From Chaetoderma sp. LZ-2023a (Eukaryota > Mollusca > Caudofoveata > Chaetodermatida > Chaetodermatidae), in assembly GCA_034401795.1 (NCBI GenBank), contig CM067373.1:89796996-89860995 (forward strand): DNA of 64,000 nucleotides, in the 5' to 3' direction. The first letter of the stretch is position 1; each line of letters opens with the position of its first letter. Made by a program: the position numbers and the translations under genes. The notes below the pieces were generated by a model. That model was given only the letters and a program-made list of their open reading frames with translations, was not told where the DNA came from and made no database searches. Positions 20,029-55,667 of the stretch are shown here, piece after piece.

Positions 20029-20036
20029 CATCAGAC

Positions 20037-30577: not shown

Positions 30578-30618
30578 CCGCATTCGTAAATAACGATACT
30601 GCCCTGTGGGTAAGAAAG

Positions 30619-30759
30619 ACCGGCTCCTGAGGCCGGTGGAACTCAATCATTCTGGTGGGGCCATGCGACCATCGTCGCGAACATTAAACACAAGCGGTCT
30701 CATCCCAAGAGTTTGTGTCACCAGTATGCCTGTCCATAGCAATTTCGTGATCTATGGAC
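30619..30759 (-). other. Pair of conserved hairpins at the end of copy A
   Basis: Hairpin 1 has stem ACCGGC/GCCGGT (30619-30637). Hairpin 2 has stem GTCCATAG/CTATGGAC (30732-30759). Both are kept in copy B1 (41051-41069 and 41163-41190). In hairpin 1 one G-C pair is replaced by A-T in B1, so pairing is preserved. Both changes are also CpG transitions, so chance cannot be excluded. Confidence 0.6.
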
Positions 30760-33563
30760 TTACAAGATTTGATTGGTGACCTAATTAAACTAAGTCTATG
30801 CAATAATTCTACTTAAACAGACTGTCAAGCATGCTAGATAAAAAATGTTGAGCATACGAAAATACAAGACATAGAGACAGCCTGATGAACATTTAAGCAT
30901 GGGGTTCCCCTCAGGTACCACACAGACTCGTAGGTCCGCAGAGGTATCCACGCAAAGGAGGCTCCCGTACACGAGATTTAACTAATTAACTTAATATAAG
31001 CTATTATACCTCTAAGCTGAAAGGAAAGAAAATTATCTTTGTAGTGATGGAAAATCATGTGCCTCACGCGGGCATTACTCCTAGTGCTAGTTTTGGTGAG
31101 GAGTATTATCCTCGCATGGACCGTCGTCGCTGAATCCTGGCAAGAGGCAAGTGCCTCGCGTGGGCCTCTGTCACGGGAAAATGTCGCCGCTGCTTAAAGC
31201 GGGAGAAGAGTAGTAGTAGAAGGGGGGGGAGGTGGCCCACTCTAATATTTAACCAAAAATGCTTGGAGGAAAATACCATACCTAGTGAGATTATGACTAT
31301 ATGGTTGCGTGCTGTTTTACGTGAAGACAGGACGAACGATTCCCGAAGGATTCCCACGCCACCGTCTTATGTAATTCTCAGTATGCTGAATTAGTAGTTG
31401 CCGCTTTTATTTATGCGGGCCTTCTTCTATGCTTCTCCTACCTGTTTAGTTTTTAGAGACAAGAATTATTTTAGGCCGCAAATGGCTGGTGTCTACCTAG
31501 CTTTTAGATATGGCTGTCAATGAGAACAGATGCCCTAAGACTTCAATACTGAAGACAGCGTCCAGACATGTTACTTATTAAGATCTCCGAACTGGATAAG
31601 AATCTGGACATCTCGCTCCGTAACCACATAAATCGTTACAAGACATCGGTTACTTTTCACAAGAGCATTGTTAGACAACTGATCTATCGTTATGGTGGTG
31701 GTAAGAGAGACGAATACCCACCGTAAATGTCCTTCCCGTGAGGGTGTGGCAGATCTGAATATAATGCCCAGACATTGTTATGGAATTCGGTGGGATGCGC
31801 ATCTTGCCCGTCACCAGGTCCTATGGATCTAACTTTTTAACCTGTCGTTAGGTTTAAATGCAAGCTGCCCAGTTATGCACTGCGGTGCGGGAGGTTGTTT
31901 AGCAGATTAAGGAAAATAATAATTAAGATATGTTTTCGCAGTACTTTCCTACATTGGTAAAGGTGCTAACTACTAAGTATCCGAGGATACAAAGGGAATG
32001 TGTGTAACACCACACACTGGCCATCACCGCTTGGAAACCCCAATAGTTTCCCAGGGTCGGATCAGCCGATGGTGCGGATAGGGACATCCAAACAATTAAG
32101 AAGCCATAAGGCTTAGTGGAACATTAAGAGAGACAATAACTTAGAAATATAAGGCCCTTCAGGTGTTTTGGCCAATCTTACACAACCTTACCGGAGTGCG
32201 GGGCTAAATTATCGCAACTACCGGAAAAGAAGTGTACACTACGTGTTTCCTAACAAAGAAATTGTCTCTAATCATATTAAACCCATCCTATCAAGCTGAA
32301 TAGAAAAGGTTTTTAGTTGGTAGCATGCCGGGCTAAACAGAGTTATAGCACGGACAGTGACCTCAGTGAAAAATTGTTCGTGGCGGGAGAAGGTGCTGCA
32401 TATATATATGTTGCTGTATAGTGTTTCCTACGTGCACTGCAGTCCTATATTTTCTATAAATAAGCAAAACATATGAACTGATGGCCACTGGCCATATACA
32501 AACTAATCAGAACAATTAATACAGTGTGAAATGATCAGAATAATATATATATATATAGTACAGGTTGAGGAACCTACTACGGTGCGGTTAGCGAAAACAC
32601 CTTACAGAAACTAAGAATAACTATGAACAGATACAGAAATTATAACAAGTGGTCCTAAGACCATTACAGTACCTTTTAGTCATCGGGACCGTTTATACAG
32701 ATACGATCTAATTATCAAAGATATAATTAACGGAATAATTAAAATGTCAAGTATAGTTACTTGAATAATCGGTAGCCATTCTTAAGTCTGGGCTATCGTG
32801 TTACTGAAATTGATACTTCACTCTTAGGTTGGCGTGAGTTGATGCATTCTCAAGGAGCTGGAAAGTTCCCACAGGCTGGTTTCTGCGAACAGGATTCCCA
32901 TAAGCAGCTCATGATGGAAGCGGATCAAACTCAGGACTGTAATCACAATATAGAATGTTTAACGAGTAGTCAGCAAGAGATACAATAACATTACTGCTGT
33001 GACAAAAGTTCCTGTACACCGATGGTACGGATGGAAGTTGACAACAACCCAATCATAAGCGGGGTTTGTTTAATGCAGATGAAGATGCATAATTAAGCTT
33101 AACGGTGTGGGGTACATCAGCCAGCTCTGAAGACGTACCGGGCAAAGTTTACTTGCTGCGGTCGAAAAGTTTAGGGGAACCTGCATGACATCAGTGCGGG
33201 GACGGTTAAATAAACACTTTTTGCATGGTCGGCAGATCCGGCGAGTCATCCACCAAGGAACATCGCTGCCTCTACATCTGTAGAATCACATTTTTAGGCC
33301 GGAAAGGCCTAACCGCAAGTTCGTGTTCCGAATTATCTCTTGATATATTCGTGAACAATATCTAAAAAGTTCCAAAATTCTCCCGCAAGCAACAGGAGTT
33401 ACAAAATTGCTTTTAGTGCGGTGGGCTGGAGTACTGCTGGCCACGGGAGAGAAACCGACAGAAAGCGAAGTGATCTGCGTAATGTCTCGCTGATCGTAGC
33501 AGAAACAGGTCCAACCATTTCGGCCCCTGGCCGAGGATGCTCTCGAACTCTGGATCTCGTCTC

Positions 33564-33707
33564 CTTTTATACTACCCGTGACGTCACAGGCACAGGCTCC
33601 AGCCAATCATCGGTCGAGCAACAGCCAATCAGCGCGTACCTAATAATAACGCAGCCAAATGTTCTAGAACATTCTAGAAGTTCTGCGTCCACGTGGTTAT
33701 GACGTCA
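33564..33707 (-). promoter_or_regulatory. Promoter 1 of copy A: TATA, CRE, CCAAT, heat-shock element, E-box
   Basis: Read on the minus strand toward the TATA box: CRE palindrome TGACGTCA (33700-33707), E-box CCACGTGG (33689-33696), heat-shock element of alternating TTC/GAA units (33661-33680), two CCAAT motifs on the plus strand (33625 and 33603), a second CRE (33579-33586), then TATAAAAG (33571-33564). These are standard RNA polymerase II elements in sensible order and spacing. The same set is kept in copy B1. Transcription would run left into sequence with no conserved protein frame. Confidence 0.75.
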
Positions 33708-34404
33708 CGGCAATATTTTGAAGATAATCAAAGGGGTTTTCCGTGGATAACTCAGCCATTTCTTAACCGATTTGAAATGGTTTACAGATTTGGAAAGCCC
33801 GTCGAATTCTGATCCTGATTAATGCCGGATTTGCTGGGTACAGGTAATTACAAAGGATTACATTGTACCGTCTTGGTACACTAAAAGCGTCATCCCATCT
33901 TGGTCATAAACTACGCGCTCTGTCAAGAATAGTATCTAAGTGTGCCAGGCGCATTATGCGCTTTAACGAACTTAGTCGTTTTTATAACGCGATCTCTCTC
34001 ATAGGCTCATATACGCTTATGGCTCTACCCAGGGGGGCATGTTCAGGGAATGAATCCAGCTTGGCTGGTACGGCTGGTACCCGCCCGGTCGATCCGAACT
34101 ACACTACCCCCTCCTAGTTTGACATCCGTGGCAAACGATCACGCATTGCGGATCGATGCACAGACATATGCTAGGTGGAATTATAGACTTCCCACGTGGC
34201 GCGTGGCCGGAGAGGAGTAGTGACGCAATAGACGCATATTAAAGAGACAGAGCACATAGAGGTGCCCAAGAGGAGAGGGGAGGCATACTTTTAGTTTTTA
34301 ATTTTTGACCGAGAATTATTTTTCCAGGCCTTTTCTTTCTTTTTTTAAATAGTTTGGTGCATGCTTCAACTTTATTTAGTCAATGATCCCTAAACAATAG
34401 CTCG

Positions 34405-34457
34405 CATGGGTGTTTTCTTTGGGTGCAGATAATTATTATCTCCGCAGAGAACACCCA
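34405..34457. other. Conserved hairpin in copy A
   Basis: CATGGGTGTT and GAACACCCA form the outer stem; an inner GCAGATAAT / ATTATC pairing is weaker. The hairpin is present at the same place in B1 (45172-45226, where the pairing is better: GCGGAT/TCCGC) and C (47412-47463). Nearby, a second stem (ACCTGG/CCAGGT type) at 34307-34330, 45066-45086 and 47303-47326 is perfect over 9 bp in C. Confidence 0.6.
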
Positions 34458-35073
34458 AACTCCAACGTACCACAATTTAAGTTTTAAAATATGTAATAAT
34501 ATAAGATATATATGTATATATGAAATATAAAATTTCCACGTAACATAACCTTACGGGGTATCTAGCATATTACATCCAAATTACTTGTGCACACTGGGTA
34601 AATAAAGGGGTACGCAACACGTGTCTTTAATTAGAAATATATTTGCGGCCCGTTATAGCGGGTCCGCAATGGGCAGCTCTCACTGACCCCATAGCCATCC
34701 TGACATCTAAGACAGGAAGAAAAATAATCAGAAAAATAGAACACAATAATAATAACTCAAAAGTTAGTTTGTCAGCCAGTCCCAGCATAGCTGAGACTGC
34801 ATGACGGGATTTTGACATTATTGCACTGCAGGATGTTGTATTCTTTATGTCACACATGACGTTCCTACAACACCGGAGTCAGCAGTGCTCATTTTGTTTG
34901 GGACATAGCTGGGCATCGAAGTGCACAGCTGTGTCGGATAATCGTAGTTATCCTAGGGATGGGATTCAATTGATCTAACATATATAATAAAAAGAAAAGT
35001 GTTTCAAAAATAAATTAATAATTATTACGTTTCCATGAATCGCACCACTGATGTTCTGTTGTATCACAAATGA

Positions 35074-36349
35074 TCACACCTCTGCTGCGAAATTTCCCCA
35101 CTGACTCTGGGTCCCGCGACTGATGGTGGTTGGTCGCAGTGGATGCACTATTAATGCTGAGATGCGTTCATTATCACTGGCACTGTCGGAAATATCTGAA
35201 GTGATTGTGGCGGAAATATGAGGGTCTATAATGTCTCTCACAGTTACTGCGGGTGCTAAAATATTTGTCCATAAGGCAGATGTGGTGCTAGTGGTTGTCA
35301 AGGCGGTTGATGCTGTTGTCTTTGTGGTGGTCGTGGTGGCTGTGGTGGTTGTCATGGCGATGGCGGTGAGCTGAATCGTAGGCTGAGGCAATGATGCGGG
35401 AGCGGATACGGCAGAAGATGACATCTTTCGAGACTTAGCGTATTTCGACAGATGATTTGCGGTAACATTGGGGACGGGCTGAATGTCCTGCGTGTGAGCG
35501 ATACGTTTCTTTCCCACATATGGTCGTTCCGGCGTGGTTCCCTTCCTGATGGCTGGATCAGAAAGACTAGGAGACGGATGCTGGATAACATGAGTTGGAG
35601 TAATGCTAATCGACGCAGGCTGCAACGGTCGTGGTCCCTCGTCTATGGTCAGGTCCGGAGGAGATGGTGACTGCGGGTAACTTGGAATTTGTATCCCAAC
35701 AGGTGTCGTGATGATGACTACCGATATCAGCTGACTGGCTGAAATTGCTTCAGACACTACGGGTGCAGGTGTAGTGGCTGTAGTTTGATGGCTGGTCACT
35801 GATGCGGCTGCTGCCGGGCTGGATTCTGCGGAGGACTTACGTTTCTTGCTCTGCTTCAGGACCGGTGCAGATGTGGTGACTGGTAGTGGCATAGTGCTCC
35901 CTGATGTGGCTGCGGGTAGGATTGCTCACAGTAGCCGCGGGAGGACGATGACTAACGCGATGTCTTCTGGTAGTATTTTTTGTGCAGGCCATCTTCTCGG
36001 TCGGGAGAATTTTGACTGGAAACCGAGATTCAAACCATGTGGCTAACACGGCACAATCCTCGTTTTCTTCGCCTGGAACTAATGTCACTTCTAACAGATG
36101 GTGATGATGACGGAGCGCATGGGTCACTCCATAGCGAGTAGCGGTATAGAGATACTGACACGTCATGCAGAAGGCTGTCTGGAGGAGATGATCCTTGGTA
36201 ACATGAAGTGTGCAGTCGTATTTTCTCGTAAAAGTTCTGGTACAGGGTTCTCTGTTAGCTAATAACGAGCTGCACGGGAATCTTTTTAAAACTGGTACCG
36301 ATTCTTCTTCAAACGAATCTGACAACGCTAAATCTTCGAGCAGTGACAT
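35074..36349 (-). pseudogene. Zinc-finger plus Ser/Thr/Pro-rich protein of copy A, split by a frameshift
   Basis: The first frame (36349-35837, 170 aa) has a true ATG about 215 bases downstream of promoter 2. It holds two candidate C2H2 fingers: a loose one around EPCTRTFTRKYDCTLHVTKDH spacing, and a clean CMTC-x12-H-x3-H finger at about residues 57-77. The second frame (35892-35074, 272 aa) starts within the first and is shifted. It has a KKRK basic patch, long Thr/Ser/Pro/Ala runs and a conserved block around DPAIRK and PERPY. Copy C carries the matching halves in one frame, so the shift in A is damage rather than design, though programmed shifting is not excluded. The carboxy end RGTQSQWGNF is also kept in C. 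Function is unknown; DNA or RNA binding is a guess from the fingers. Confidence 0.65.
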
Positions 36350-36563
36350 CTCGTTCCCGCATGGTAGGTGGTTGCGGGAACCTTATTCAAAACCTAAAGC
36401 CCTATCTCTTAATTTTCTTAACTTTCCAGGCCAAGTATGGTAATAATGACCTAATAATAAAAACAGCAGAATTTAGTTTTCGACACGAAAGAAGCCTAAT
36501 GCTATCTGTTCTTCCCTGGTGTCCAGTTTTGATGGGAAGACAAAGTTTCAGAGTGTGCTTCCT

Positions 36564-36588
36564 CCTTTTATACTATTTGGTGACGTCA
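36564..36588 (-). promoter_or_regulatory. Promoter 2 of copy A: TATA and CRE
   Basis: TATAAAAGG (36572-36564) with TGACGTCA (36581-36588) just upstream. The core CTCCTTTTATACTA...GTGACGTCA (plus strand) is almost identical to promoter 1. It precedes the zinc-finger ORF by about 215 bases. Copy C lacks this segment. Confidence 0.7.
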
Positions 36589-38440
36589 TAGGCGGCGGAT
36601 GACCACACCTGGAAGTTTTAACAGGTGATTCGGTCAGCCCTATATGGAATGTTTTTCTCTCCCATTCTAGACGTCAAGGGATTAATTCTTCCCGTATAAA
36701 GGGAGTACTTTTAATTATAGGAGGAATGGCTCGTTAACTTTGTCCTAATTTAGCGCATTTAACAGCCTCCGATCAACATAAAAACGTGGTACTACTTTTT
36801 CTTTGAGGAGCCTCACCTTTTAATTAGCGTGAGGTGGTTTTTCAGACTGGATGCTTATAAACTTGCCTGTTTTAATTTTAGGCTGGAGCGCCCGATGGGG
36901 TGTGTGGAAGCCTGGTGACGTCAGCAACAATTACCCCGACTCACCCTCGCCACTCCTCCATCACGCTGTGGTAGTCGCGTATTTGGGCCGCTCTTGTGTT
37001 TAAAGCGTTTGATCCAATTTACTGGAAATAGCAGTAAAAATTCACGTGGCCCTTGGAAACACGTGGTTGATCGGAAACATATGTGCTTTTTACGGCCATG
37101 GCCGAGATACTGTTCCTGAAGTGTAGTCTTTTGTAGATGCGATGTATGGAAATATATATATGTTACACCATTATTTTTGTTTATATCAATGTCCCTATTT
37201 GCGCGGGTTCTTACACATGCATCTTGTAGTTGTCTGTAAAGGTAGTTCTCAGCCCGTGTTGTTTATGGACTGGAACACAGAGAATAGAATTTTTGAAATA
37301 CTCCTTGTAATTATACTGTTAGGTTTTTTACGCCGCTTTACCGGCCCATGTGCTAAAGATTTGTAGCATGATAGAGCAGTTGTGCTCTTAATCAAAAATT
37401 TAACAGTAAAGTTGTAAGTAATTTGATGTGTGGTTTAAACAAATCTATTCAGGCGGTAGATCAAAGTTACTGATCCTGACAAGATAGCTGCGTTTTCTGA
37501 GCGGGAGGGCTGTCAAGCATTCTCCTCAATGGGTAGAACTAGCTCCGTCCCTGCCTAGACCAGACACATTAATACCATTTAATAATGGTTAAATTACAGT
37601 ACAACTCGGAAGTGGGTGCCACATTTTTACAATTTACAATGCCGTCGTTTGGAGATTGTGAATACAGTCAACCTGAGTGTCTATGTTTCTGACATGTTGG
37701 TGATTTGAATATGATACGCGTGGCTGGTTATCTGTGGATGATACTTGTGCTGTGGAGAAGGTGACGTTTTTATGGCCGCCAGGTGCGGGAATGGGGGAGG
37801 TGGGGTGAATGTCAACTTTATCGAATCCTGAGGGTATTTCACTCTATAATGGCCGATCCCGTGGGCGGGACAGAGTTACTTTAGAGCGAAGATGACCTCT
37901 CGGATGATGTCGTAACTTTGATCAATCCATTATCGAATTCAACTTTTCGGTAGTAAAATCCTACTCGTGACTGACGACAATGCGGGCATCTTGCTCTCTT
38001 AATAATATCGACTGTTATTACGTGTAGATGATGTATGTAGATTTTGGCTGTTTCCGTACGACATTGGGGAAAAGTGAAGGGGAGGAACGTTGAACAAACG
38101 TTCCTCCCGTGACGCGTACTGTAGATGGCTGTAGTGTAATCCTTATATCCATATGATCAGTTCTCCCGTAACTGGATAAGAAGGTGTGTGCGGGAGATTT
38201 GTTGGCTGTTGTTTGTTGAGGATACTGTTGTTGTCGGTATGTCCGGGCTGCTGTATGATACCAATGTGAAAGCGAAGTGGGGGCATTCCAGTTTTCCATG
38301 CTGGTGAACGCCAAGTCTGTTGTTATTGCGGGAGGTGGGGGTTTGCGAGAGATATTATTTCTCCCGCATCTTGTGCGGGTGGAACTGTTGCGGGAATATT
38401 TATGTCTCTATCGGGAATTAATTAATACCGGTAGGTGCTG

Positions 38441-38606
38441 CTAAATGATGTTGTTGCCGATGTTGAATGTCTCTGCTATGCTAAGTATAACTGAGTATGT
38501 ATGTGATGTACGCGCAATGACGAATTGACGTATCAAGCCTTGAGGGCAGGTGTGTTCTTTATGTGATGACTATCTGTCTGTGGTGTGATGTCCTGACTGC
38601 TCACTG
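38441..38606 (-). pseudogene. Short ORF at the 5' end of copy A, damaged
   Basis: The frame from about 38563 to the stop at 38441 reads HKEHTCPQG, then RQFVIARTSHTYSVI. It aligns without gaps to the 54-aa ORF of copy C, and both end at the same stop position. Upstream the A copy is shifted and has GTG where C has ATG. No family is recognised. Confidence 0.5.
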
Positions 38607-38689
38607 GTGAGTATGATAGACCGGATGGATGGGGTGGCCTTTGGACAGGCGGTAGACCATGAAGCCATTCTACCACTCGACAAAGGCGA

Positions 38690-39018
38690 CAGGACAATAG
38701 GTCACAGCTTCAAATTGCAGAAACAACATTTCAACACAGACACCAGAAAGCATTTTTTTCACTATTAGAGCGACTAACCACTGGAACAGTCTACCAGAGT
38801 CAGTGGTGACGGCTCCGTCCATCAACCCATTCAAGGCAAGGTTAGACAGACACTACAGTGAGGCCTCATACACGATAGATTCCCGATCATGCCTGTCCGC
38901 ACCAATATACCAGTTCAACAGGTGCAGGATCCGGCCGCCAATGAAGATAGTGAAGACCTGCTACAGGCTGCATAGCCTAACAAGCAGAAGAGGAGTATGT
39001 AACTATCTAACTATGTAA
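38690..39018 (+). pseudogene. LINE RT carboxy-terminal fragment
   Basis: FNTDTRKHFF in one frame, then NHWNSLPESVVTAPSINPF-type sequence leading into the frame SINPFKARLDRHYSEASY. The W-N-SLP motif followed by a phenylalanine-lysine-x-LD helix is the usual end of Jockey/CR1-like LINE proteins. Everything upstream is missing. Confidence 0.75.
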
Positions 39019-39029
39019 CTATAACCATC

Positions 39030-39031
<2 letters not shown>

Positions 39032-39087
<56 letters not shown>
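39032..39087. repeat. TTA microsatellite
   Basis: An uninterrupted run of ATT/TTA triplets, probably the 3' tail of the LINE fragment on its left. Confidence 0.95.
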
Positions 39088-39114
39088 TGATCTAGTGACC
39101 ATCTTAATGGATAG

Positions 39115-39835
39115 TCAGACCAGTGGCTTTTAAAATTTAATGCTAACTAATGCAAGAAAATGCACCTAGGTCATAATAATCAAATGCATAACTATACCAT
39201 GAAAGAAACACATACATTGCAAATAACAACCGAAGAAAAAGGTTTAGGAATATGGATTAAAAAAATTATCACAAACCATCTATGCAGTCTTTAAAAGCAG
39301 CAAATAAAGCCATGCATATCATGAGACAAATCAAACGAGCATTCAATCATCTCGACTGAGAAATATTCCTTATTTTGTACAAGATGTATGTCCGCCCACA
39401 TCTGGAATATTGCATTCAAGCATGGTCATCATACTTTGTCAAAGACATCAACAACCTAGAACAGGTCCAGCACCGATGTACCAAATTAGTAGTAGGTCTA
39501 CGAAACAAAACATATGAAGAATGACTCAAATCACTTGGTTTACCAACCCTAAAACAACGTCGAGTCATGGGAGACCTTATAGAAACATACACAATTATCA
39601 AACAAGAAGAAAGCATTGACCCAGCACAATTTTTCTCATTGGCAGAATGATCTGGACAGTGAGGTCATAGGCTAAAACTGTTCAAACCTCAGTGTCGAAC
39701 ACAGATCAGACAAAGCTTTTTCCGTTGCAGAATTGTAAATGAATGGAAGAACCTATCCGAAAACGTGCAAAAAGAACAAAAAGTAAATGCCTTTAAAACC
39801 GCACTTGACACCTTTTGGAAGCATACCCTTGTGTA
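39115..39835 (+). pseudogene. Second LINE RT carboxy-terminal fragment
   Basis: A decayed frame with stops: LKFNANKC, LGIWI, AANKAMHIMRQIKRAF, LYKMYVRPHLEYCIQAWS, LEQVQHRCTKLVVGL, LPTLKQRRVMGDLIETY, FFRCRIVNEWKNLSENV. These are the thumb and carboxy-terminal motifs of a Jockey/CR1-like RT. It is different from retrotransposon 1 and from the fragment to the left. Confidence 0.85.
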
Positions 39836-40309
39836 GGATGATACTAGCCTATACCTTAGTATGGACTTAAAATGGGCAAAATGCTTAACTTCGTCCATCT
39901 CTGTAACTCGAACTCTAAGTCTATTCAGACTACTAGTGGATTGCAGACATAATCATCCCGGTTCTGTTCAGATGCAGGGTATAACAGATCTCTCTGGGCA
40001 TCTTTTGGAGTTTCAACAGGGTTTTTGATGTGGTCTCATGGACTGTGAGCTTGCTTGAATCTAGGGTAGGCTGAATGTAATTCTCAGTTGTTGTTTCTGG
40101 GAGACCAAGTTGAATCAGACATACCAAGATGCATCAGCCATACTGGCACTTTACAAAGTATGGTTTTCTAGTAGACCGAAGTTCTGTACAGACAAGCAGG
40201 AAGTGAGTGATAATAATATATAAGGTGACGACAACTTCTTCTACATACTCTGCGAAAATTATATGCTCGTCAACACCACACACAACTTTCTGCCTGGCAA
40301 GATATATCC

Positions 40310-40910
40310 AGTGGGGTACCACAAGGTAGTGTGAGAGGCCCTGTCCTGTTTGTTATTTATATAAATGACCTACCGGATAATGTCAGTTCTGAAATCTACA
40401 TCTTCGCAGATAACACAAAGATTTATAAAGAAATTCTAGACAAGACAGACAGTAAAATACATGGCTACTAAAATTCCATCCAAACAAATGTAGAGTTCTG
40501 AAAATAAAAAGCAAACAAAATGTTGAAAACAGATCCTATCTGAGAGGACGGTCTCCCAATACCACTTAAAGCTGTTGAGTTTTTAAAAGATCTAGGCATA
40601 TTTATAGACAGACAACTTAACTTACGAAAAACATGTACAGGAACCGGTAAATAAAGCCAACAGGATAATGGGAAAAATTCGCCGAACCGACACATACCTA
40701 GATAATGACAATTTCACCCTGCTGTACAAAGCATTAGTATGCCCTAAAATTGAATGCGCTAACAGAAAAAAAATATATCAATGCTCTCGAAGATGTTCAA
40801 AGGAAGTCAACCAGACAGCTTCCATCATTGAAGTGACTGAGCTACCCTGACAGGATAAAAACACCAAATCTCCCAACTATAAAACATAGATGACCCCGGG
40901 GAGATATTGT
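40310..40910 (+). pseudogene. Third LINE RT fragment (catalytic core to thumb)
   Basis: SGVPQGSVRGPVLFVIYIND and IFADNTKIYKEI hold RT motifs; the catalytic FADD has become FADN. Further on, LDNDNFTLLYKALVCPKIE matches the thumb region, with breaks between. It directly abuts the left side of repeat copy B1. Confidence 0.85.
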
Positions 40911-43900
40911 AGCTCACCGGGTAGTGTCGGGCTGTTCCGATGTCTCACGTCGATTTGCCGTGCCGCAAGTGCACGACGAGTGATGACGCTGGTTAGCATC
41001 CGGTCTCTGGGTGATGGACCTTGAATGAGACTGCCCTGCGGGAAACAAAAACCAGCTCCTAAGGCTGGTGGAACTCAATCATTCCAGTGGGGCCATGCGA
41101 CCATTGTCGCGAACATTAAACACAACAGTCTCATCCCAAGAATTTGTGTCACCAGTATGCCTGTCCATAGAAATTTCGTGATCTATGGACTTACATTATT
41201 GGTTCGGTGACCTAAAAATATAAGTCCATACAATGCGTTTACCTAACTTATTAAAAATATGCTACATAAAACTACAGTAAGAACATACGAAAATACAAGA
41301 CATAGAGGCAGGTAGATGAACTTTTAAACATGGGGCTCCTGGAGGTACCACACAGACTCGTAGGTCCGCAGAGGTATCCCCACAAGGGAGACTCCTGTAC
41401 ACGAGACATAGCTAGTTAACTGAAAGGAAGAAGGTTATGTCAGACGAAAAGTGATGTGCGTCACGCGGGCACTACTCCTAGTGCTAGTTTGGGTGAGGAG
41501 TATTTTCCTGGCGTGGACCGTCGTCGCTGAATCCTTGCGAGAGGCAACTGCCTCACGCAGGCCTCCGTCTCGGGAAGGTGTCGACACGGCCTAAAGCGGG
41601 ACAAGAATAGTAGGCAAAAATGGGCCACCCTAATATTTCAAACAAAAATGCTGTAGAAAGAAAAGACCATACTTAGTGAGATTATGACTATAGGGGTGCA
41701 TACTGTTTTATGTGAAGAGGGAACGGAAGATTCCCGATGGATTCCTTCGTCACCGTCTTATGTGATTCCTAATATGCTGAGTTTGTAGTTGCCGCTTTAT
41801 TTCTGTGGGCCTTCTGCTTTGCTTAATTCATTTTAGTTGTTTTCAAAACAAGAATTAGTTTAGTCCGCAACTGGCCGATATCTACCTAGCTATTAGACAC
41901 GGCGGTCATGGAGAACAGATGCCCGAGGACATCAATACTGTAGACAGCGCTCATACATGTTACTTAGTGGGATCTCCGAACTGGGTGAGAATCCGGACAT
42001 TCCGCTTCGCAACCACATGAAACATTACAAGACATGGTTTACATTTCACGAAAGCATTATTAGGCCATATCTCCTATCGTTATGGTGGGGGTAATAGAGA
42101 CGAATGCACACCGTAAATGTCCTTCCCGTAAGGGCATAGCAGATCTAAATATCATGGCCAGACATTTTAACAGAATTCGGTGAGAATACGTATCTCGCCC
42201 GTCACCGGGTCCTATGGAACTAACCATTTAACCTGTCGTTAGGTTTATATACAAGTTGCCAGTTTTGCACTGTGGTGCGCGAGGATTGTCAGTAAATAAA
42301 ATAATAATTAATACATGTGTTTTCGCAGTGCTTTCCTACATTGGCTTAAAGTACTATCTGCTAAGTATCCGAAGATACACGGGAGTGTATGTGATACCGT
42401 ACCCTAGCCATCACCGCTCGGAAACCCCAATAGTTTCCCAGAGTCGGATCAGCCCATGGTGCAGATAGGGACATCCAAACAATTAAGAAGCCTCAAGGCT
42501 AAGAGGAATATGAAGAGAGACACAATCTTAGAGTTATGAGTCTTACCAGAGTGCGGGGCTAGATTATCACACTGCCGGAAGAGAAGAGTATATTACACAG
42601 TATTTAATGAAGACAGTGTCTCTAATCATTTTGAACCTATCCTATTGAGCTGAATAGAAAAGGTTTAGTTGGTAGTATGCCGGGCTAAACAGAGTTATAG
42701 CACGTTCAGCGACCTATTGTTGGTGGCTGGAGAAAATGCTGCATATATAAATGTTGCTGTATAGTGTTTCCTACGTACACTGCAGTCCTATATTTTTTAT
42801 ACCTAAGCAAAACAAGTTAACGGATGGCCACTGGCCATATACATACAAAATCTAACCAGAACAAACAATATGGTGTCAAACGATTAAGATATATATATTA
42901 ATACAGGTCAACGAACCTACTATAGTGCGGTTAGCAACACATTGAAGAAAATGATAATAACTATTAACAAATACAGAAATTATAACTATCGGTCCTAAGA
43001 CCATTATGGTTCCTTTTAATCATCGCAACCGTTATTACGGATACGAGATAATTAACAAAACCTATATAGAGAAATAATTCAACTCTGGAGTATAGCTACT
43101 TGAATACTTGGTAGTCATTCCCAAGTGAGGCTACCATGTTACTGAAATTGATACGTCAATCCGTAGTTGACGTGAGATGATGCGCGCTCCGTAAGCTGGA
43201 AAGTTCCTGCAGGCTGCTTTCCTCAGGTTGGTCCCCGCGAGCTGTTGTCCGTAAACAAGATTCCCGCAAGAACGTTCATGGCGGGGGAACATCGCTCAGC
43301 ACTGTAAGCCTATTAGAATGTCTAGCGAGCAGTCAGTAAAAGATACGATAGTACTACGTGGGCAAGAAGGTTCCCGTACACCGATGGCACGGGGGGAAAG
43401 TGTAAACAACCCATCACAAGTGTGTGTGTGTGGGGGGGGGGGGGGGTCAGAGGCAAATGAAGATACAAAACAAAGCTTCACAGTGCTGGGTACGTCAACC
43501 AGCTCTGAAGACGCACCGGGCAGAGTTTACTTGCTGCGGTCGAAAGTCGAAAGAACCGACATGATGTAAGTGCGGCAATGATGGAAATACCACTTTTAGG
43601 CATGGCTGGCAGATCCGGCGAGTCATCCATCAAAGAACATCCTGCCTCTACATCTGTAGACTCACATATTCAGGCCGTAAAGGCCTCACCGCAAATTTGT
43701 GTCCCGAATGTAGCTGTTGTATTCGTGAACGATTATCAAAAGTTCCAAATTACTCCCGCAGATGGGGAGTTACAAGTATTGTTTTAGTGTGGTGGGTTGG
43801 AGAACTGCACGCTACGGGATAAAAACCTGACACATAGCGAAAGAAGACGTGTATCGGGCTTGATAGCAGTTGGTACAGCTCCAACCTGTTCGGCCCCTCC

Positions 43901-44043
43901 GTTTATACTCTCCGTGACATCACAGGCGCAGGCTTCATCCAATCATCGTTCGAGCAACAGCCAATCAGCGCATCGCTAATAATAGCGTCGTCGAACGTTC
44001 TAGAACATTCTAGAAGCTTTACGTCCACGTGGTTATGACGTCA
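43901..44043 (-). promoter_or_regulatory. Promoter 1 of copy B1 with five-unit heat-shock element
   Basis: Same order as in copy A: TGACGTCA (44036-44043), CCACGTGG (44025-44032), heat-shock element, CCAAT (43961 and 43939), a weakened CRE (TGACATCA) and GTATAAAC. The heat-shock element here has five perfectly spaced alternating units (GAA 43993, TTC 43998, GAA 44003, TTC 44008, GAA 44013), stronger than in copy A. Confidence 0.75.
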
Positions 44044-44191
44044 CAGCAATATTTGGAAGATAATCAAGAAGAGTTTTCCCTGGATAACTCAGCCATTTCT
44101 CAACCGATTTTGAAATGGTTTACAGATTTGGAAAGCCCGTCGAATTCTACCAGATTTAACTGGAACAGACAATCAATAAGGATTACAGAGT

Positions 44192-44613
44192 CAGGGCCGT
44201 ATTTAGATATGTGGGGGCCCTGGGCAAAAAATGATGGGGGGGGGCGGTCTGGGGGCCCTCCCCCTGAAATTTGTTTGCATCTAGGTGCTCTGATACGGCC
44301 AGAGAGTCTACTTTTAGGGTGATTTATGGCGCTTTCTTTCTCTGTAAAATTATTTTATTTTGCAAATTTTCGTAATTAACATTGTTGCCGAACATCAAAC
44401 AAGAATTGGGGCCCTCTCAAATATTAGAATAGAATTATAATGCATGATTAAGAGTTCTAAACTACTAAAGTTTGCTTTAAATGTCCTATAACTTCCAAAA
44501 AAGTGCATTATTTTTTTTTTTGATTTTTAAATTGTGGGGGCCCCTTGCTTGTGGGGGGGGCCCATGGATTTTGCCCCGCCGCTTGCCCCCCCCCCTCCTT
44601 AAATACGGCCCTG
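44192..44613. mobile_element. hAT MITE, 422 bp, inserted in copy B1
   Basis: The ends are inverted: CAGGGCCGTATTTA at left, TAAATACGGCCCTG at right. They are flanked by TACAGAGT (44184-44191) and TACAGCGT (44614-44621), an 8-bp duplication with one mismatch. Copy A has no such insert at the matching point (about 33861). CAGGG ends and 8-bp duplications are typical of hAT. There is no coding sequence. Confidence 0.9.
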
Positions 44614-45722
44614 TACAGCGTACCAGCTCGGTATACTAAAAGCGCCATCCTATCTGGGTCACAACTATGTGCTCCATAGAAGCAGCGTTCCGGCGCGCGC
44701 ATGCGCATAATGCGTTTTAACAAACTTAGTCATTTTTCGACACACTCTCTCTCCCATAGGCCCATATACGCTTATAACTCTACCCAGAGGGGCGTGTTCA
44801 GGAAACGAATCCTAGACGGGTGGCGCGTAACCAGCTTAGCAGGTACGGCCGGTACCCGACCGGTCGATCCGAACTACACCACCCCCTCCTAGTTTCACAT
44901 CCGTGGCAAATGATCACGCATGGCGGATCGACGCACAAACATACGCTAGGTGGGAATTATAGACTTCCCACGTAGGCGCGTGGCCAGAGAGGAATAGTGA
45001 CGCATAGACGCATATTCAAGAGACAGAGCACATAGGCGAGGCATACTTTTAGTTTATAATTTTTTACCTGGAATTATTTTCCAGGCCTTTCTTTTTTTGT
45101 GTTCTTTTTATTATTAATATTACGGTGTGTGCTATAACTTTATTTAGTATATGATCCCAAACAATAGCTCGCATGGGTGTTCCCGTTGAGTGCGGATAAT
45201 CATAATCTCCGCAAAGAACACCCATGCTCCAACGTACCACAATTTAAGTTTGTAAATATATATAAAAATATAATAACAAAAAGACAAGGTATATAAGTAT
45301 TACCTATGTAACATACCCTTATGAGGTATGTTTTTATTAATCACATTGAATTACTTGTGTACCCCGGGTAAATAAAGGGGCATGCAACATGTATCACCAA
45401 GTATTATTATTATATATATATATATCTAAAATATCTTTTTGTGGCCTGTCCTTGTGGGTCCGCAATGGGCAGCTATCGCTGACCCCATATTCGTCCTGAC
45501 ATCTAAGACAGGAAGAAAAATAATAAGAAAAATAAGACATATAATAATAACTTAAAAACTGGTTTATCAGGCAGCCTCAGCGTGGCTGAGACTGCATGAT
45601 GGGATTGTGACGTTACTGCACTGCGGGAGGTTGTATTCTTTACGTCGCACATGACGTTCTTACAACATTAGAGTCCACAGTGCTCATTTCGTATGAGACA
45701 CAACCTGCCACTTAAAGTGTAC

Positions 45723-45987
45723 CGAGTAGGTACTTGTAAATGCTTATAATTTATCAAAAATTAAAATTAGTGGTATGCCTCACTCTCAAACTGTTTCGCA
45801 CCCTATGTGCTCTGTCTTATGAACACGCATCTCACGTGTCACTACTCCTCTCAGGCCATGCACCTACCCGGAAAGTCTATAATTCCTGCCTAGCATGCTT
45901 CCGTGCGCTTGATCCATGATGCGTGATCGTTTGCCACGGATGTGAAACTAGGAGGGGGTGGTGTAGCACGGATCGACCAGACGGGTG
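45723..45987 (-). repeat. Inverted, re-ordered segment matching 46985-47300
   Basis: 45723-45755 is the reverse complement of about 46985-47018, and about 45760-45987 is the reverse complement of 47071-47300. The two pieces are in the opposite order to that expected of a simple inversion. On the minus strand the right end of one unit is joined to the start of the next. The junction falls exactly between copies B1 and C. Confidence 0.85.
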
Positions 45988-46701
45988 CCGTCTGAAGAAA
46001 ATGGTAAGTGCAGAAAAATCCTAGTGAAGCCATAATTAACGTGATGCGTATTGGTTTACATGAAAGCGGAAAGAGCGATTTCTGAAGAATTCCCACGTCA
46101 CCGTCTTATGTAGTTCCAAGTTGCTGCATTGGTAGATGTTGCTTTATTTATGCGGGCCTTCTGCTACAGTCTAACCTACCGATTAAGTGTTAGAAACGAA
46201 AACTAGCTTTGGCCGCAAGTGGCAGGGATTCCTACCTATCGTTAGATATAGCTATCCAATGGGCGCAGACGCCTAGCTTCCCGTAGGTCGCCTTGAAAGA
46301 GCATCTACCTCCATGGATGGTAAGCATACATGTTACATCGCAACATATCCAAATTTGATCAGAATCCTGGTATCTTGCTCTGTAGCCACATAAAACATCA
46401 CCCGGACAATGGCTACATTTCCTGGCCCACACGGCCCCTCCCGCAGAAGTTGCATTTAGGAAAGTCTGGATGTGGAAGGACTAACTTGAAATTTAGTTTA
46501 TTACTCCCGGATGGCCAAAATTCTGTGGAAGCCGAGGACGTCTTATGCCACGGATGTGCTGGGTTCCGTAAGCCACCAGTTGAAGTGAAGATAACTGGTA
46601 GGTCAGCAAGTTACATCCGTCATCCAGGTGGTCCAGTCGTCCTGCGCTGGCTGGCTTCCACGCCGGTGATGCTCGTGATCCTTGGTTTTTCAACCCTTTT
46701 A

Positions 46702-46800
46702 TACTCGCTGTGATGTCAGGGCTGGGCGCCTCAAACAATCAGCAGCCGAGCACCAGCCAATCAGCGTGCTGGTATGCTAGTGACGTATCGACCACGTGTA
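46702..46800 (-). promoter_or_regulatory. Degraded promoter 1 of copy C
   Basis: The minus-strand TATAAAAGG box, a CRE-like TGATGTCA, the CCAATCAGCG motif and CACGTG are retained. The heat-shock element is absent. This shows which parts of the promoter are older or dispensable. Confidence 0.55.
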
Positions 46801-48080
46801 CACAGATATTTATATTTAGTTTAATATATACACGCGGCTACGACGTTATAGCAATATTCCAAGTATAATTTAGCGGGGAGTCTCGACAATAATTCAGCCA
46901 TTTCTGAGCCGATTTTAAAATAGTTTACAGTTTTGGAAAGCTCGTTTAATTCTGGTCCTAACTGGTACCAAGAAAAACGAGAAAGGATAAATTATAAGCA
47001 TTTACAAGTACCTACTCGTTACACTATAGGCAAGCACTCGCTTCCAATTCCGCCTTGCTGGGATGGCCGTCACCCGTCTGGTCGATCCGTGCTACACCAC
47101 CCCCTCCTAGTTTCACATCCGTGGCAAACGATCACGCATCATGGATCCAGCGCACGGAAGCATGCTAGGCAGGAATTATAGACTTTCCGGGTAGGCGCAT
47201 GGCCTGAGAGGAGTAGTGACACGTGAGACGCGTGTTCATAAGACAGAGCACATAGGGTGCGAAAGAGTTTGGGAGTGAGGCATACCACTGATTTTAATCT
47301 TTGACCTGGAATTATTTTTCCAGGTCTTTTCTCTTTTTTTGATTTGTGTTTATTTCTTGGTGCGTTATTTATTTATTAATTATTTATACGATGATTCCTA
47401 AACAATAGCTCGCATGGGTGGTCTCTTGAGTGCAGATAATTATTTTTCCGCAGAGAACACCCAAGCTCCAACGTACCACAATTACAATACAGTAAAACGT
47501 ATACGGATTATTAATTATGTAATTATACCCAATAGAGTATCACAGGTTGGTTTCTTTAATCACATAGTGTATCCCGGGTTAATAAAGGGATGCACATAGA
47601 TATATATTAGTAGCATGCATCCAGATTATATGAATGGAGGCATACAGTGCGGATTATGCACAAGCAGCTCTCGCTGCCCTAAATCCACCCCGTCATACTG
47701 ACGCGGGGCTTAAAAATAATAAGAAAAATAAGATATAGTAATAAAGTAAAAAGGCTAGTTCATCAGGCAGCCCCAGCGTAGCTGAGAGTGCATGGCGGGA
47801 TAATAACATTTTCTCTGCGGTGCATTGTGTACCTATGTCGCACACGACATGTTTACAACACAAGAATCTGCGGTGATTATTTTATGGTGAGACACAGCTA
47901 CACAACAAATATTGTGCAGTGGTGTAGGATGACCATAGTCAGTCTAGGGACTGGGTTTCAATTTTTAAAACATATATAATAATAAGAAAAGTATATCAAA
48001 AATAAACATAATAATGAATTCCGTGTTCCGCACAACTACTGATAAATCCTACTGCAACCTCGGCAATAGTGTCCACAAAC

Positions 48081-49127
48081 ATCTGCGCTGAAGTTTCCCC
48101 AGCAAGTCTGGGTACCGCGACTTGTACAGGACGGATGTGGCGGGTGATCCTCCGCTGCTGAAATATCCCAGGCTCATCTCTGAGAGGCTATAGCTAGAAG
48201 ACGGTGCTTATGTGTCCATAGATGTGCTGGTGGTACGGAAATGATGCCTGGTGATGAGAGAAGTGGCGGTGGCGTGGTGACTGCAGACATCACTGTCTTG
48301 GTTGATGTGGTCAGTGTGGTTCGTGCTGCTGGCGGGCTGAGTGCTGTCACGCATATGAGCAGTCACCGGAACGGTGATGTATTTGCGAATGCTGCGGCTG
48401 ATGCTGTTGCAGATGCGGTGCTGACAGATAGCTTCCGGATCTTCGTGGACTTCAGAAGTTTGCTTGCGATCGTCCTTGGCATGGCGCGGATCTCCTGGGA
48501 ATGTGCTACACATTTCTTCATGGCGTAAGGACGTTCTGGCATTGTTGTCTTCCGTATTGCTGGATCCGTTGGTGTGCTGCTGCTGCATGGGTGTGCAGTG
48601 ATGCTGGTTCGTGATGCGGTGGTCGGGATTGCTTCCATAAGGCTCTTCTCCTCGTCAATGATAAGGCTACCAGGAGATGTAGATCTATCTGAAATGTCCT
48701 GTAACACTGGCTCTGGCGCGCACATTGTAAGAACTACCGAAATGGGCCGGCCGATTAAGGATGCGGATGCTGATGTTGCTGTATTGCGTGATGCAGATGG
48801 TGGCGTTGCTGCGGGTGCTGCCAGAGTGGAAACTGCAGGTGGTGCTGGTACCATCACTGCAGTTGCTGCCGGTGCTGATAATGCTGCTGGTTCCATCCTG
48901 ATGGTGGCGATGGTGGCGTAGTGGGTCAAGGTGTGCTGTGTTGCGGATCTGGTGGCTACTGTTGCTGGCTGATAGTGCAGGAAATCTGATGGTCGCCGTT
49001 TCGTACGTTTAGTCTTGGCCATCTTCTTTGTAGGAAGCATGTTAATAGGAAGTCTAGTTTCAAAACGAGCGGCTAGCACTTCAATGCCTTCACTTTGTTC
49101 ACCAGGCTGTAATGTAACTACAAGCAC
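48081..49127 (-). pseudogene. Ala/Ser/Thr-rich ORF of copy C, lacking the zinc-finger half
   Basis: The 254-aa frame (49127-48363) begins with GTG, because the upstream zinc-finger part and promoter 2 are deleted. It matches copy A at VTLQPGE, RFETRLP, LPTKKMAKTK, GRPISVV, DPAIRKTT and PERPYAMKK. The middle is alanine-rich (APAATAVMVPAPPAVSTLAA). Below 48363 the frame breaks, but the final block (RGTQ, WGNFSADV) survives near 48120-48081. The matching motifs in A and C are evidence that this was a real protein. Function is unknown. Confidence 0.6.
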
Positions 49128-49923
49128 ACGATGGTCTTTGTTGTGAAAGCACGTGGTTGATCAGAAACTTAAGCACTATTTACATACTGGCGGAGTGGTG
49201 ATGCTGATGAATATTCGTTGTTGATGCAAAAGACGGAAATATATGTTTTTAACTCTGTTCCTTAGAACAGCGTCCCTATATGCACGTGATCTTATACATG
49301 CGTCTGCATCTTGTCTGTAAGAATGTATTCCAGCCCATGTCAATCTCTTGTGGGAATATGTAGGTAAGAGAATATTTGAAATTCTCCTTGATATTATACT
49401 GTCGAAGTTTTGATGCCGCTTCATCATCCCGTGTGCTAATGATCTGTATACACGGTAGAACGATGGTGTTCTTAATCAAAATTAGGACTGTATAGCTGTC
49501 TATAATTATTGTCTGGTATAGACAGATCCATTACTTGTGGAAATTAAGTATACTAACACCGCCAAGCTGGACTGTATTTTCCGAGTGGGTGGACTGCCAA
49601 GCATCCTCCTCTGGGAGTAGGACAAGTCCCATCCCTACCTAGACCAGACTTAATTTATTATAATACATCTCGGAAAATGCGTGCCTCAGTTTACAAAAAC
49701 AATACCGTCGCATGGAGATTGTGAATGCAGTCATCCTGAGTGTCTATGTTTCTGTGGTGTTGGTGATTTTCATTGATATGTGTGGCTTATCTGCAGATGA
49801 ATCTTGCGCTGTTGTGAAGGGTGACGTTTTTATTACTCAAGGGAGGGGAAGTGAGTAAGTGAAGTATGGTGCCACCTTTATCGGACATGATCTTCTTCTT
49901 CTTCTTCTTTTCGATCGCTGGTA

Positions 49924-51794
49924 TCACACTTGGAGAGCCGTTCTCAAGATGAAATCTGTGGTTTTCTGCAGTTCTTCCACAGGCCAGATTTCTTCTCTCA
50001 GCAGCTGATACGTACTGCAATATTGAAGTATGTGCTCTGTGGTCTGTTCTGCTTCTCCACAAGGACAAGCGGGCGATGTCGTAAGGTGGAACCGCCTGTA
50101 CATGTGTTGGTTTAGTCTGTTATGTCCAGTTCTGAGACGAAAAATGGTCACTTGCTCTGGCCTCGAGAGATGATGGTAGGCATCTTCTGATTGAGGTGTT
50201 CTATAGAGTGACTTGATGATAGTCTTCATCTCTGTATGCGTAACCATGTTTTCTGTCTGATTCTCTTCTGCGCCCACCTTTGCCATCTTGTCTGCTTCCT
50301 CATTTCCTTGGACTCCACAGTGTGAGGGGATCCACTGCAATGCTATCTGAAAGCATTTGATGGTTTGTAGTGCTTCTTCAAGTTGTGGCAGCTTACCTTT
50401 GGTGATAGCCTCAAGGACGGAGCGGGCATCAGATAAAAAGACAATCTGTGCAATAGGGTCTGCTGTTATGCTGATGGTATTGGCTGCATGGACCAGTGCT
50501 TCGACTTCAGCTCTGTAGTTTGTGCAGTGTTTGCCTGTCGGTACTGCAGTTGACTCATGTTGTCCGTTTGGATACTGTATGTGCAGTCCGGCACCTCCGC
50601 TCCTAATTGCATCTTTGGCTGATCCAACTGTGTAAATCCTTATCCCATGTTGTCCGTTTGGATACTGTATGTGCAGTCCGGCACCTCCGCTCCTAATTGC
50701 ATCTTTGGCTGATCCAACTGTGTAAATCCTTATCCATGTCTCCTGAGGGTACATTTCTTCCAGCATGGCTAGGGTCAGGGCCTTCTTGCTCGCATCACTG
50801 TGTTCATCTTTGGTTGTGAGATGAGGTACTGTGATGCGAATAGCTATGCTCTCTAGTTTGTTTTCCCAGGTTGGAGGATCAAGGGTGTGGTTTGGGTCTT
50901 CTATTTGTGCTGGCAACATTTCTTGGTATTTCCTTTGAAGTGCTTTTGTCTCTTTCACAAAACTTGATCTTTTAAGTCTTCCTGATGACAGCTGTGCTTG
51001 CCTGATCTTCATCGGGTGGTTGTTGAACGATTTGAACTTTGCAGCTTGGATCAGTGCTTTGCATTCCCTTCCTTTACTAAGTGGGGGGATGCTGCTGTCT
51101 GCTCCATTTTTTCTATTGGTGTTGATCTCATTCCACCAGTGATGATGCGCAGTGCCTGGTTTTGTACTCTGTCGAGGTTGATGAGATTTAGCTGCTGTCA
51201 TCCATGAGCTGGATCCATACTCAAGGTGTGGTCGTACGACACCTAGGTAGATGGTCTTGAGGATCCTTTCATTGGCACCCCACTTTGTTCCTGCCAGCTT
51301 CCTCATGATGTTTAGCTTTCTTCTGGCCTTTGCCTCTGCGTTCTGGATGTGCTCCTTCCATGTTAATCTTCTGTCATAGGTGACTCCCAGGTATGTCTGC
51401 TGGTCCTCGTACTCGAGTGGAGTACCGCCCAGTGTCAGATTGCCAACCTTGGTTTTGGTGGACAGTGAGAATAGCATTGCTGATGATTTTTCTTTGTTGA
51501 TGGTAATACACCAGCGATTGGCCCAAGCTGTAATTCTGTCCAAGGCGAGCTGCATTCTGTACGTGGCAGTCGTTGTGTACTCCTCGGTGCACCAGAGTAC
51601 GAGGTCATCTGCATAGAGGGCTGCTTGGATCCCATTGGGCAGCTCTGCTACAATATCATTAATGAAGAGTATGAACAGAGTTGGTGATAATACTCCGCCT
51701 TGTGGTACCCCTTGTCTCAGCAATACATTCTGTCCAGATTGTCCATCCACCAGCACCCTAGCTCTGCGATTGTGTAGGTATGACTTGGTCCATT
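49924..51794 (-). CDS. LINE polyprotein fragment: RT core, RNase H and carboxy-terminal CCHC-like motif
   Basis: The frame is open from the insertion edge (51794) to the stop at 49924, about 620 codons. It has no start of its own because the 5' half is missing. RT motifs: RQGVPQGGVLSPTLFILF, the catalytic YADDLVLW, INKEKSSAM, QTYLGVTYDRRLTW and RPHLEYGSSSW. RNase H follows, with YRAEVEAL, FLSDARSVL and WIPSHCGVQGNEEADK. The usual first aspartate of TDGS is valine (TVGS), and that segment is duplicated in tandem. CPCGEAEQTTEHILQYC ends the protein. A stretch at about 51090-51185 reads in the wrong frame between two compensating shifts. It was an enzyme for making and inserting cDNA; here it is certainly incomplete. 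Confidence 0.9.
50556..50735 (-). repeat. 90-bp tandem duplication at the start of RNase H
   Basis: Two adjacent, nearly identical 90-bp units (50556-50645 and 50646-50735). Being a multiple of three, it adds 30 residues (IRIYTVGSAKDAIRSGG...) without breaking the frame. Both carry the Asp-to-Val change, so the substitution came first. Confidence 0.95.
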
Positions 51795-52392
51795 GGACAT
51801 GATGTATTTCACTCTGTAATGGCCGAGCCCGTGGGCAGGACAGAGTTACTTTAGAGTGCGGATGACAAAGACGGGTGCTGTCGTAACTTGGACCAATCCA
51901 TTGTCGAATTCAACTTTTTGGTAGAAAAATCCTACTTGTGACGGACGACAGACTGCGGGCATTTTGTTCTCTTAATAATATTGACTGTTATTACGTGTGA
52001 ATGAAGTATTATGTTATTAGCTATTTCCGTACAACGGTTCTGGTGGGGGGTGGGGGGGGGGGAGGTTCCCCCTGTAGTGCATACTGTAAATGGCTGCGGT
52101 GTGCTTCTTTCCATATAATCAGTTTTCCGTAAACCAGTTAAGAAGGTGATTGCGGAAAATGTTGACTGGTGTTGATGGCGGTAGTGTACTGTTGTAAGTC
52201 AAGGCTGCTGTGTGACGCTGGTGTATTACAGATTGGGCATATCCAGGTTTCCACGCTGGTGAATGCCAAGTCTGTTGCGGTTGAGGAAAAGTCGGGATTG
52301 CGGGAAGTAATATACTTCCCGCATATGTACGGGATGGAATGTTGCGGAAATTTGTGTCTCTAACTTTTTTGATTTAAAACGTTAGGTGCTTG

Positions 52393-52557
52393 CTATATCT
52401 TGTTGTTGATGGTGTTGATTGTTTCTGTTATATCCTCTATAACTGGATATGTATGTAGTATTCGCGCAACTGTGAATTGACGTAACCAGCCTTGTGGGCA
52501 AGTATGTTCTGTGTGCACTTGGGTTTCTGTGCTCGATGTGATGTTCTGACTGCTCAT
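52393..52557 (-). CDS. Small ORF (54 aa) at the 5' end of copy C
   Basis: ATG at 52557, stop TAG at 52395-52393. It starts MSSQNITSSTETQVHTEH, then TCPQGWLRQFTVARILHTYP, and ends TINTINNKI. The second half aligns to copy A (TCPQG, RQF, AR, HTY, VI) and stops at the same place. Similarity with A ends almost exactly at this ATG, so the 5' edge of the family may lie here. No domain is recognised; it may be the first exon of a larger spliced product. Confidence 0.45.
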   Translation of the reverse strand: MSSQNITSSTETQVHTEHTCPQGWLRQFTVARILHTYPVIEDITETINTINNKI

Positions 52558-55522: not shown

Positions 55523-55602
<80 letters not shown>

Positions 55603-55667
55603 TGCAGTAGCAGTAATAGTAGTAGTAGTGGTGGTAGTCGTAGCGGTGGTGGCGGTACATGATGTAC

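Follow-up and report, generated by a model that had tools for sequence, protein, structure and literature searches.

Truncated Ty3/Gypsy-type LTR retroelements with multi-kilobase LTRs, an accessory C2H2 zinc-finger gene and an internal promoter-like core in Chaetoderma

Foamy viruses (Spumaretrovirinae) have a tRNA-Lys-like primer site, and HeT-A-type and LARD elements look enzyme-less and have a long non-coding portion. The latter two features recur in the family described here, which differs from HeT-A-type and LARD elements in having its own pol. Within Ty3/Gypsy (Metaviridae), 21 Gypsy clades are reported in molluscs (PMC6238403, available part). The present family shares with the molluscan lineages TG...CA LTRs, a purine tract, the order PR-RT-RNase H-IN and an RT nearest that of Ty3, but differs by having a 3.4-3.6 kb LTR, a C2H2 accessory gene and a promoter-like core inside the element. 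Its layout is also that of foamy viruses, in which an internal promoter precedes a downstream regulator gene in addition to the LTR promoter (PMC7390438, available part). The same part of that source presents such an internal promoter as a feature that foamy viruses alone have, and describes their LTR and internal promoters as little related in sequence, whereas the two cores here nearly match. The family is not a foamy virus, because its RT is Ty3-type, no env-like frame was found and its accessory protein showed no similarity in the searches made. Vesta, Juno and TelKA of bdelloid rotifers likewise carry an extra non-pol gene downstream of pol, but their ORF3 encodes an esterase, an exonuclease or an env-like protein, unlike the zinc-finger (ZnF) gene here (PMC5408684, excerpted text); the words "promoter" and "zinc" are both absent from its main text. 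Troyka elements are also Metaviridae-related animal LTR elements, but have CG...CG ends and 3-bp duplications (PMC12440569, excerpted text), against TG...CA and, where seen, 4 bp in this family. Among the titles and abstract openings returned by literature searches, none describes a Ty3/Gypsy element that combines an internal promoter with a C2H2 gene.

We analyzed a 64,000-nucleotide stretch of Chaetoderma sp. LZ-2023a DNA (the window), in which a sequence-only reading had delineated three copies (A, B1 and C) of a repeat family with two TATA/CRE promoters and a zinc-finger/low-complexity protein, no polymerase and no fit to a standard class. Self-comparison of the window reproduced the collinear repeats (A 30592-33810 versus B1 41024-44148, 77% identity; A versus C in pieces of 70-78% identity from 31306 to 38603), and both TATA/CRE sites (33563-33586 and 36564-36588) and the zinc-finger/low-complexity ORF (A 36349-35074) are present. 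The family nevertheless fits a standard class: it is an LTR retroelement whose LTR is very long and whose gag-pol half is nearly all missing from the three copies. Its assignment to the Ty3/Gypsy type is near certain, and we hold with high confidence this identity combined with an anatomy of LTRs, primer-site-like stretch, gag-position frames, pol, spacer, promoter-like core, ZnF ORF and purine tract. A match to a known family with defined ends, which the same reading had named as counter-evidence, was found at the superfamily level, while no named family was matched. The puzzle of the missing enzyme has an ordinary answer in that the copies are truncated LTR retroelements. What is unusual is the pair of promoters and the ZnF gene that had been singled out.

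A genome search with the repeat as probe returned at least 44 matches on many contigs, a figure that comes from scoring 40 of 11,119 loose first-look candidates and is not a copy number, and 20 stretches of ~10 kb were fetched for end mapping. Seven (L009-L015) run past A position 34105, five of which (L009, L010, L012, L013 and L015) extend to the high end of A near 38650; the other 13 (L016-L028) end at or near 34105 (L027 at 34059). The depth of matching copies drops from ~21 to ~9 at 34100. The opposite end is also sharp, lying ~117 bp past the low end of A and starting with TGTAGC where found, and the flanks are unlike one another. The repeat unit, which a purine tract adjoins, is an LTR, and copy A comprises an internal part followed by a 3' LTR. 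The LTR of A occupies 30593..34103 on the minus strand, with its 5' end reading ...TGTAGTTCGGATCG at 34103 and its 3' end lost. The purine tract, read directly as AAACTAGGAGGGGGTAG (34106..34120, minus strand), adjoins the LTR 5' end; its GGAGGGGGT portion is exact in 6 of 7 matches, a similar tract lies beside the LTR in long copies, and the GGAGGGGG tract sits at the 3' LTR. Across the family the LTR measures ~3.4-3.6 kb with TG...CA ends (whole units 3352-3635 bp, n = 6), and six complete units were found alone, with no adjoining gag or internal sequence in the fetched DNA. These six solo LTRs carried the test for target duplications (4-6 bp in Ty3/Gypsy elements), which the sequence-only reading had sought and which was answered in part: an exact 4-bp duplication flanks two (L016 and L018), and none flanks the other four (L017, L019, L022 and L024), of which L022 and L024 lie in the same satellite.

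The LTR core promoter (33563..33586, minus strand) comprises the TATA element TATAAAAGG at 33571-33563 and the CRE TGACGTCA at 33586-33579, and a second CRE lies at 33707-33700 (minus strand). Exact-match counts among copies place the TATA at the 99.9th percentile of 9-mers (21 of 22 matches) and the two CREs at the 74th and 92nd percentiles (15/22 and 18/22). AATAAA, a candidate poly(A) signal read directly at 31406..31411 (minus strand), occupies the same place in B1 and C; its exact-match score is average (11/23) because an alignment gap shifted, and its position would imply an R region of ~2.1 kb. The conserved non-coding kilobases that contain the promoter are mostly LTR.

The enzymes came to light in L029, a stretch adjoining the L009 copy, in which a 5' LTR is followed by the primer-site-like stretch, gag-position frames and pol. 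Pfam matches include RVT_1 (3e-28), RT_RNaseH (3.3e-16) and Integrase_H2C2 (2.5e-15), with a protease match (3.7e-4) and integrase-core pieces below the Pfam cut-off; these pieces give the order PR-RT-RNase H-IN. None of the three gag-position pieces has a Pfam match, one shows a CCHC-like stretch by eye, and the candidate gag is assigned by position only. Two bases past the LTR, in both L029 and L020, begins the primer-site-like stretch (TGGCGCCCGATGTGG...), which we take to be tRNA-Lys-like, a likeness to foamy viruses. The 3' LTR in L009 and the 5' LTR in L029/L040 align in three pieces at 92.5, 89.2 and 93.9%; over 3505 aligned columns there are 169 mismatches. The alignment leaves out the outermost ~170 bp of the 5' LTR, which makes the target duplication of this copy unreadable. 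Among solved structures, the RT is nearest the Ty3 RT (1.1e-43), followed by a foamy/retroviral-type RT (7.7e-12). At E<=1e-30 it has 795 relatives, of which 120 were listed; three of those listed carry an organism name, namely two Thiodiazotropha bins (62%; lucinid clam symbionts) and a Patella caerulea protein (56%). A non-LTR element, Helitron, Polinton or DNA transposon is excluded by the LTR ends, the primer-site-like stretch and the Ty3-type RT. The genome search for full copies, ends and an enzyme that had been proposed thus yielded sharp LTR ends and, in the L009/L029 copy, a pol.

Downstream of pol, after ~2 kb of non-coding DNA and the second promoter-like core, lies an ORF of ~425 codons that encodes two C2H2 fingers (CX9CX12HX4H and CX2CX12HX3-4H), an acidic start and an S/T/P/A-rich body. 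In copy A the gene spans 35074..36349 (minus strand) and is broken by frameshift into ORFs 36349-35837 and 35892-35074; the frame in L009 (~6808-5530) is also broken, and copy C keeps a remnant (48363..49106, minus strand) that lacks the start and the finger part; tblastn queries taken from the frames of A and L009 locate it (E 1e-8 to 1e-16). Genome searches gave at least 150 matches to the A-type gene (150 of 7,356 first-look candidates scored) and at least 153 to the C-type gene (150 of 9,319 scored; partly listed). By our own count, 24 of the 150 listed A-type rows show an open frame of 400 aa or more, and 18 of these are stop-free in the matched part. Pairwise dN/dS is 0.39 for the N-part (120 pairs) and 0.41 for the C-part (136 pairs), compared with 0.82-1.06 in two other frames, 0.62-1.19 in the flanks and 0.57-1.11 in 36 LTR window-frames. 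Two 17-row windows contain 0 and 4 stops in the ZnF frame versus 46-147 in the other five frames. A-type and C-type genes differ by 0.35/0.28/0.61 at the three codon positions (693 codons, 7 copies), and finger 1 reads as complete in four and finger 2 in six of the seven C-type copies. Between A and its near relatives, the codon positions of the N-part differ about equally, with no third-position excess, as expected if most differences postdate insertion. The dN/dS values, the stop counts and the codon-position differences between A-type and C-type genes indicate that the ORF is under protein-level purifying selection across subfamilies.

The ZnF protein gave sub-threshold Pfam matches only (zf_ZIC 0.0044, DUF7410 0.04), and the AlphaFold model of its finger part has a mean pLDDT of 40.5. 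Protein searches with the gene recovered as relatives only P0001 and P0122, both from JGI metagenomes (7992 best candidates scored in one search), and a scan of viral and genome contig collections with P0001 recovered no relative. Maximum 19-residue hydropathy ranges from 0.74 to 1.94 in six ZnF pieces, two of which exceed the usual cut-off of 1.6; one of these is P0001, in an apparently frame-shifted tail, and a membrane protein is unlikely. Between pol and the ZnF ORF, a scan for env-like frames found none with both low dN/dS and few stops, some windows holding 5-6 rows; its weakest window (L009 8478-8777) has 5 stops and a ratio of 0.62.

The putative internal core promoter (36564..36593, minus strand) combines the same TATAAAAGG, at 36572-36564, with a CRE at 36588-36581, and a further internal CRE lies at 36923-36916 (minus strand). 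Aligned with the LTR core GCCTGTGACGTCACGGGTAGTATAAAAGGAG, the internal core GCCTATGACGTCACCAAATAGTATAAAAGGAG forms a shared module of 32 nt with a score of 37, a value reached in 0 of 1000 shuffles (maximum 32). Exact-match counts among A-type copies place the internal TATA at the 89th percentile (12/15) and the CREs at the 50th and 62nd (7/15 and 8/14). An independent test used the upstream DNA of seven C-type copies, drawn from the 153 matches, spread over identities and stop-free in the matched part. The module is present in five of the seven. Four of these five modules have an exact CRE; one has an exact TATA, and the TATA of the other four carries one mismatch. L046 retains the CRE only and L047 neither CRE nor TATA. 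The TATA-to-ATG distance is 224-231 nt in L041, L043 and L044, where the ATG is readable, and 223 in A. Six of the seven copies are 73-78% identical to A across this upstream region, and the module is kept no better than its surroundings (69th percentile). CRE conservation is at, or only moderately above, background. Conservation supports the region, and the core-to-core match supports its reading as a promoter.

The element would have moved by ordinary reverse transcription and integration, with full-length genomic RNA presumably made from the LTR promoter. A short ZnF mRNA would start at the internal promoter and end in the 3' LTR, and the ZnF protein may bind DNA and regulate both promoters. 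By analogy with foamy-virus Tas, we tentatively suggest that the internal promoter makes a ZnF regulator of both promoters, arisen separately. A Metaviridae-type two-promoter switch independent of foamy viruses, in which an internal promoter with the same core drives a C2H2 factor that activates the LTR, is more doubtful. Were that switch real, very many copies could be controlled together, via host CREB signalling. Such a circuit would also mean that an internal promoter with a self-encoded transactivator is not confined to foamy viruses, contrary to the available part of PMC7390438. The transposon family would then encode a sequence-specific regulator of its own that might find binding sites in every LTR, and the effect of this regulator on host genes would be directly testable.

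The same LTR element may instead use its ZnF protein for RNA export, packaging or anti-silencing defence rather than transcription, a reading to which we give slightly less than an even chance. Besides DNA, C2H2 fingers are able to bind RNA or proteins, and other extra ORFs of LTR elements may have such non-transcription roles. Many non-env third ORFs occur in LTR elements (PMC5408684, excerpted text), and a Cer1 protein is reported to be required for RNA export (PMC10309623, available part). The two matched cores, the acidic N-terminus and the S/T/P/A content of the body (32-53%) suit a transcription regulator, by analogy only. A separate question is whether the internal core is used at all: the ZnF mRNA might be spliced from the LTR transcript, as env is in many retroviruses. 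The near-background internal CREs and the imperfect TATA in four of five C-type modules point that way, but the internal core matches the LTR core, recurs in five of seven C-type copies and keeps a similar spacing to the ATG where this is readable; we take splicing from an LTR transcript to be less likely than not.

The extents of the window copies were set by comparison with relatives. Copy A (30593..38652, minus strand; blastn to fetched copies L009-L028) consists of the internal 3' region and 3' LTR; it lacks the terminal ~117 bp of the LTR and whatever lay upstream of 38652. Copy B1 (40905 to ~45702-45715, minus strand) retains an LTR with an intact 3' end and ~0.7 kb of internal sequence, and copy C (~46020-52902, minus strand) an internally deleted LTR, the ZnF ORF without its start, the spacer and the 38 C-terminal aa of pol. 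All three run in the same direction, within 22 kb. They are ~22-31% apart and each is cut at a different point, so they do not stem from the duplication of one block but inserted separately, as members of different subfamilies. We read A, B1 and C, with the same high confidence that applies jointly to identity and anatomy, as 3' remains of three separately truncated minus-strand Ty3/Gypsy-type LTR retroelement insertions. None of the nine gag-pol pieces of L029 matched in the window, and only copy C reaches pol (52902-52789, 50%, E 0.001). The reported absence of a polymerase accordingly holds for the three copies and fails for the family, whose pol is in L029; the enzymes of the element lie in the part missing from A, B1 and C. 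It is very improbable that the copies, with nearly all of pol absent and a long non-coding 3' part, belong to a distinct non-autonomous LARD-/HeT-A-like element that uses enzymes in trans, given a pol between two LTRs in L009/L029, a 5' LTR followed by gag-pol-like sequence in L020 and the unrelated points at which the window copies are cut. Whether or not the proposed circuit exists, the case shows that truncated copies can be mistaken for a new enzyme-less element when their LTRs are several kilobases long. A tandem segmental duplication of a host locus, which three similar blocks so placed might suggest, is refuted by those solo LTRs that have target duplications, and opposed by the genome-wide copies, their sharp ends and different flanks, and the divergence between blocks of different subfamilies, leaving it a negligible chance. 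The family is dispersed and mobile, as the sequence-only reading suspected: its copies are spread over many contigs, end sharply and sit between unrelated flanks.

A conserved block at 34391..34473 (minus strand; also 45158-45240 in B1 and 47399-47479 in C) has 94% mean column identity across 16 copies and a predicted hairpin fold (z -2.47; 8 of 200 shuffles fold as well). With compensatory change in 0 of 31 pairs, a working hairpin is possible but unproven, and Rfam at gathering thresholds gave no match in the window. The small ORF said by the sequence-only reading, without coordinates, to be conserved at the protein level was sought in two candidates, neither of which is protein-constrained: a frame in the LTR has a dN/dS of 0.70, within the non-coding range, and at 37.88-38.05 kb the core differences between A and C are mostly amino-acid-changing, with frame shifts on both sides. 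Copy C contains a nested LINE-like fragment (49834..51803, minus strand) with an RT thumb and RNase H, flanked by the 9-bp direct repeat ATCATGTCC and absent from A. The RNase H ORF in C (49924-51555; RNase_H 2.9e-12) belongs to this fragment and was rejected as a family enzyme. A gap in the A-B1 match corresponds to an insert in the B1 LTR (44192..44612, minus strand) that is bounded by the terminal inverted repeats CAGGGCCGTATTTA, has an imperfect 8-bp repeat in its flanks, and which we take to be hAT-like. Between B1 and C, an inverted duplicate of 47068-47304 lies at 45754..45990 on the plus strand, with 97% identity.

Two copies of the Ty3/Gypsy-type family carry inverted duplicates of the stretch adjoining the purine tract: copy C, one of the truncated minus-strand copies in the window (45754–45990 and 47068–47304, arms 97% identical), and, separately, the genomic stretch L013 (5066–5189). 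Both possibly reflect aberrant plus-strand initiation during reverse transcription.

Elsewhere in the genome, L026 contains a shortened family LTR twice in direct order (938–3517 and 8543–9920), 7605 bp apart and with equal search scores, representing either a tandem duplication or a short-LTR provirus. The arrangement in L027 is a nested insertion, the family LTR interrupting the protease/gag-like sequence of a related element (996–1545 and 5092–7004), which is 70–80% identical to L029, the stretch bearing the gag-position frames and pol of the copy in adjoining L009. The solo LTRs of L022 and L024 lie in a common satellite and have identical flanks, and thus may derive from a single insertion that multiplied along with the satellite.

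The LTR of truncated copy B1 harbors an insert (44192–44612) with inverted ends CAGGGCCGTATTTA and an imperfect 8-bp repeat in its flanks, features that make it hAT-like. Nested in copy C is a LINE-like fragment with RNase H (49834–51803) and a 9-bp repeat, ATCATGTCC; a 390-bp piece of this fragment, at 87% identity, lies inside the L009 LTR (2255–2644).

The window also contains two LINE copies in mutually opposite orientation (17424–22514, plus strand; 56245–59208, minus strand), presumably CR1-like, which are ~72–80% alike in pieces and display a PHD-finger-like start as judged by eye; the former matches RVT_1 (1.5e-29). Further repeats comprise a tandem array of a 44-bp unit at the very start of the window (1–368), a diverged family with spacings often near 0.6 kb (3082–14292), and a GTA-type triplet array (55523–55746).
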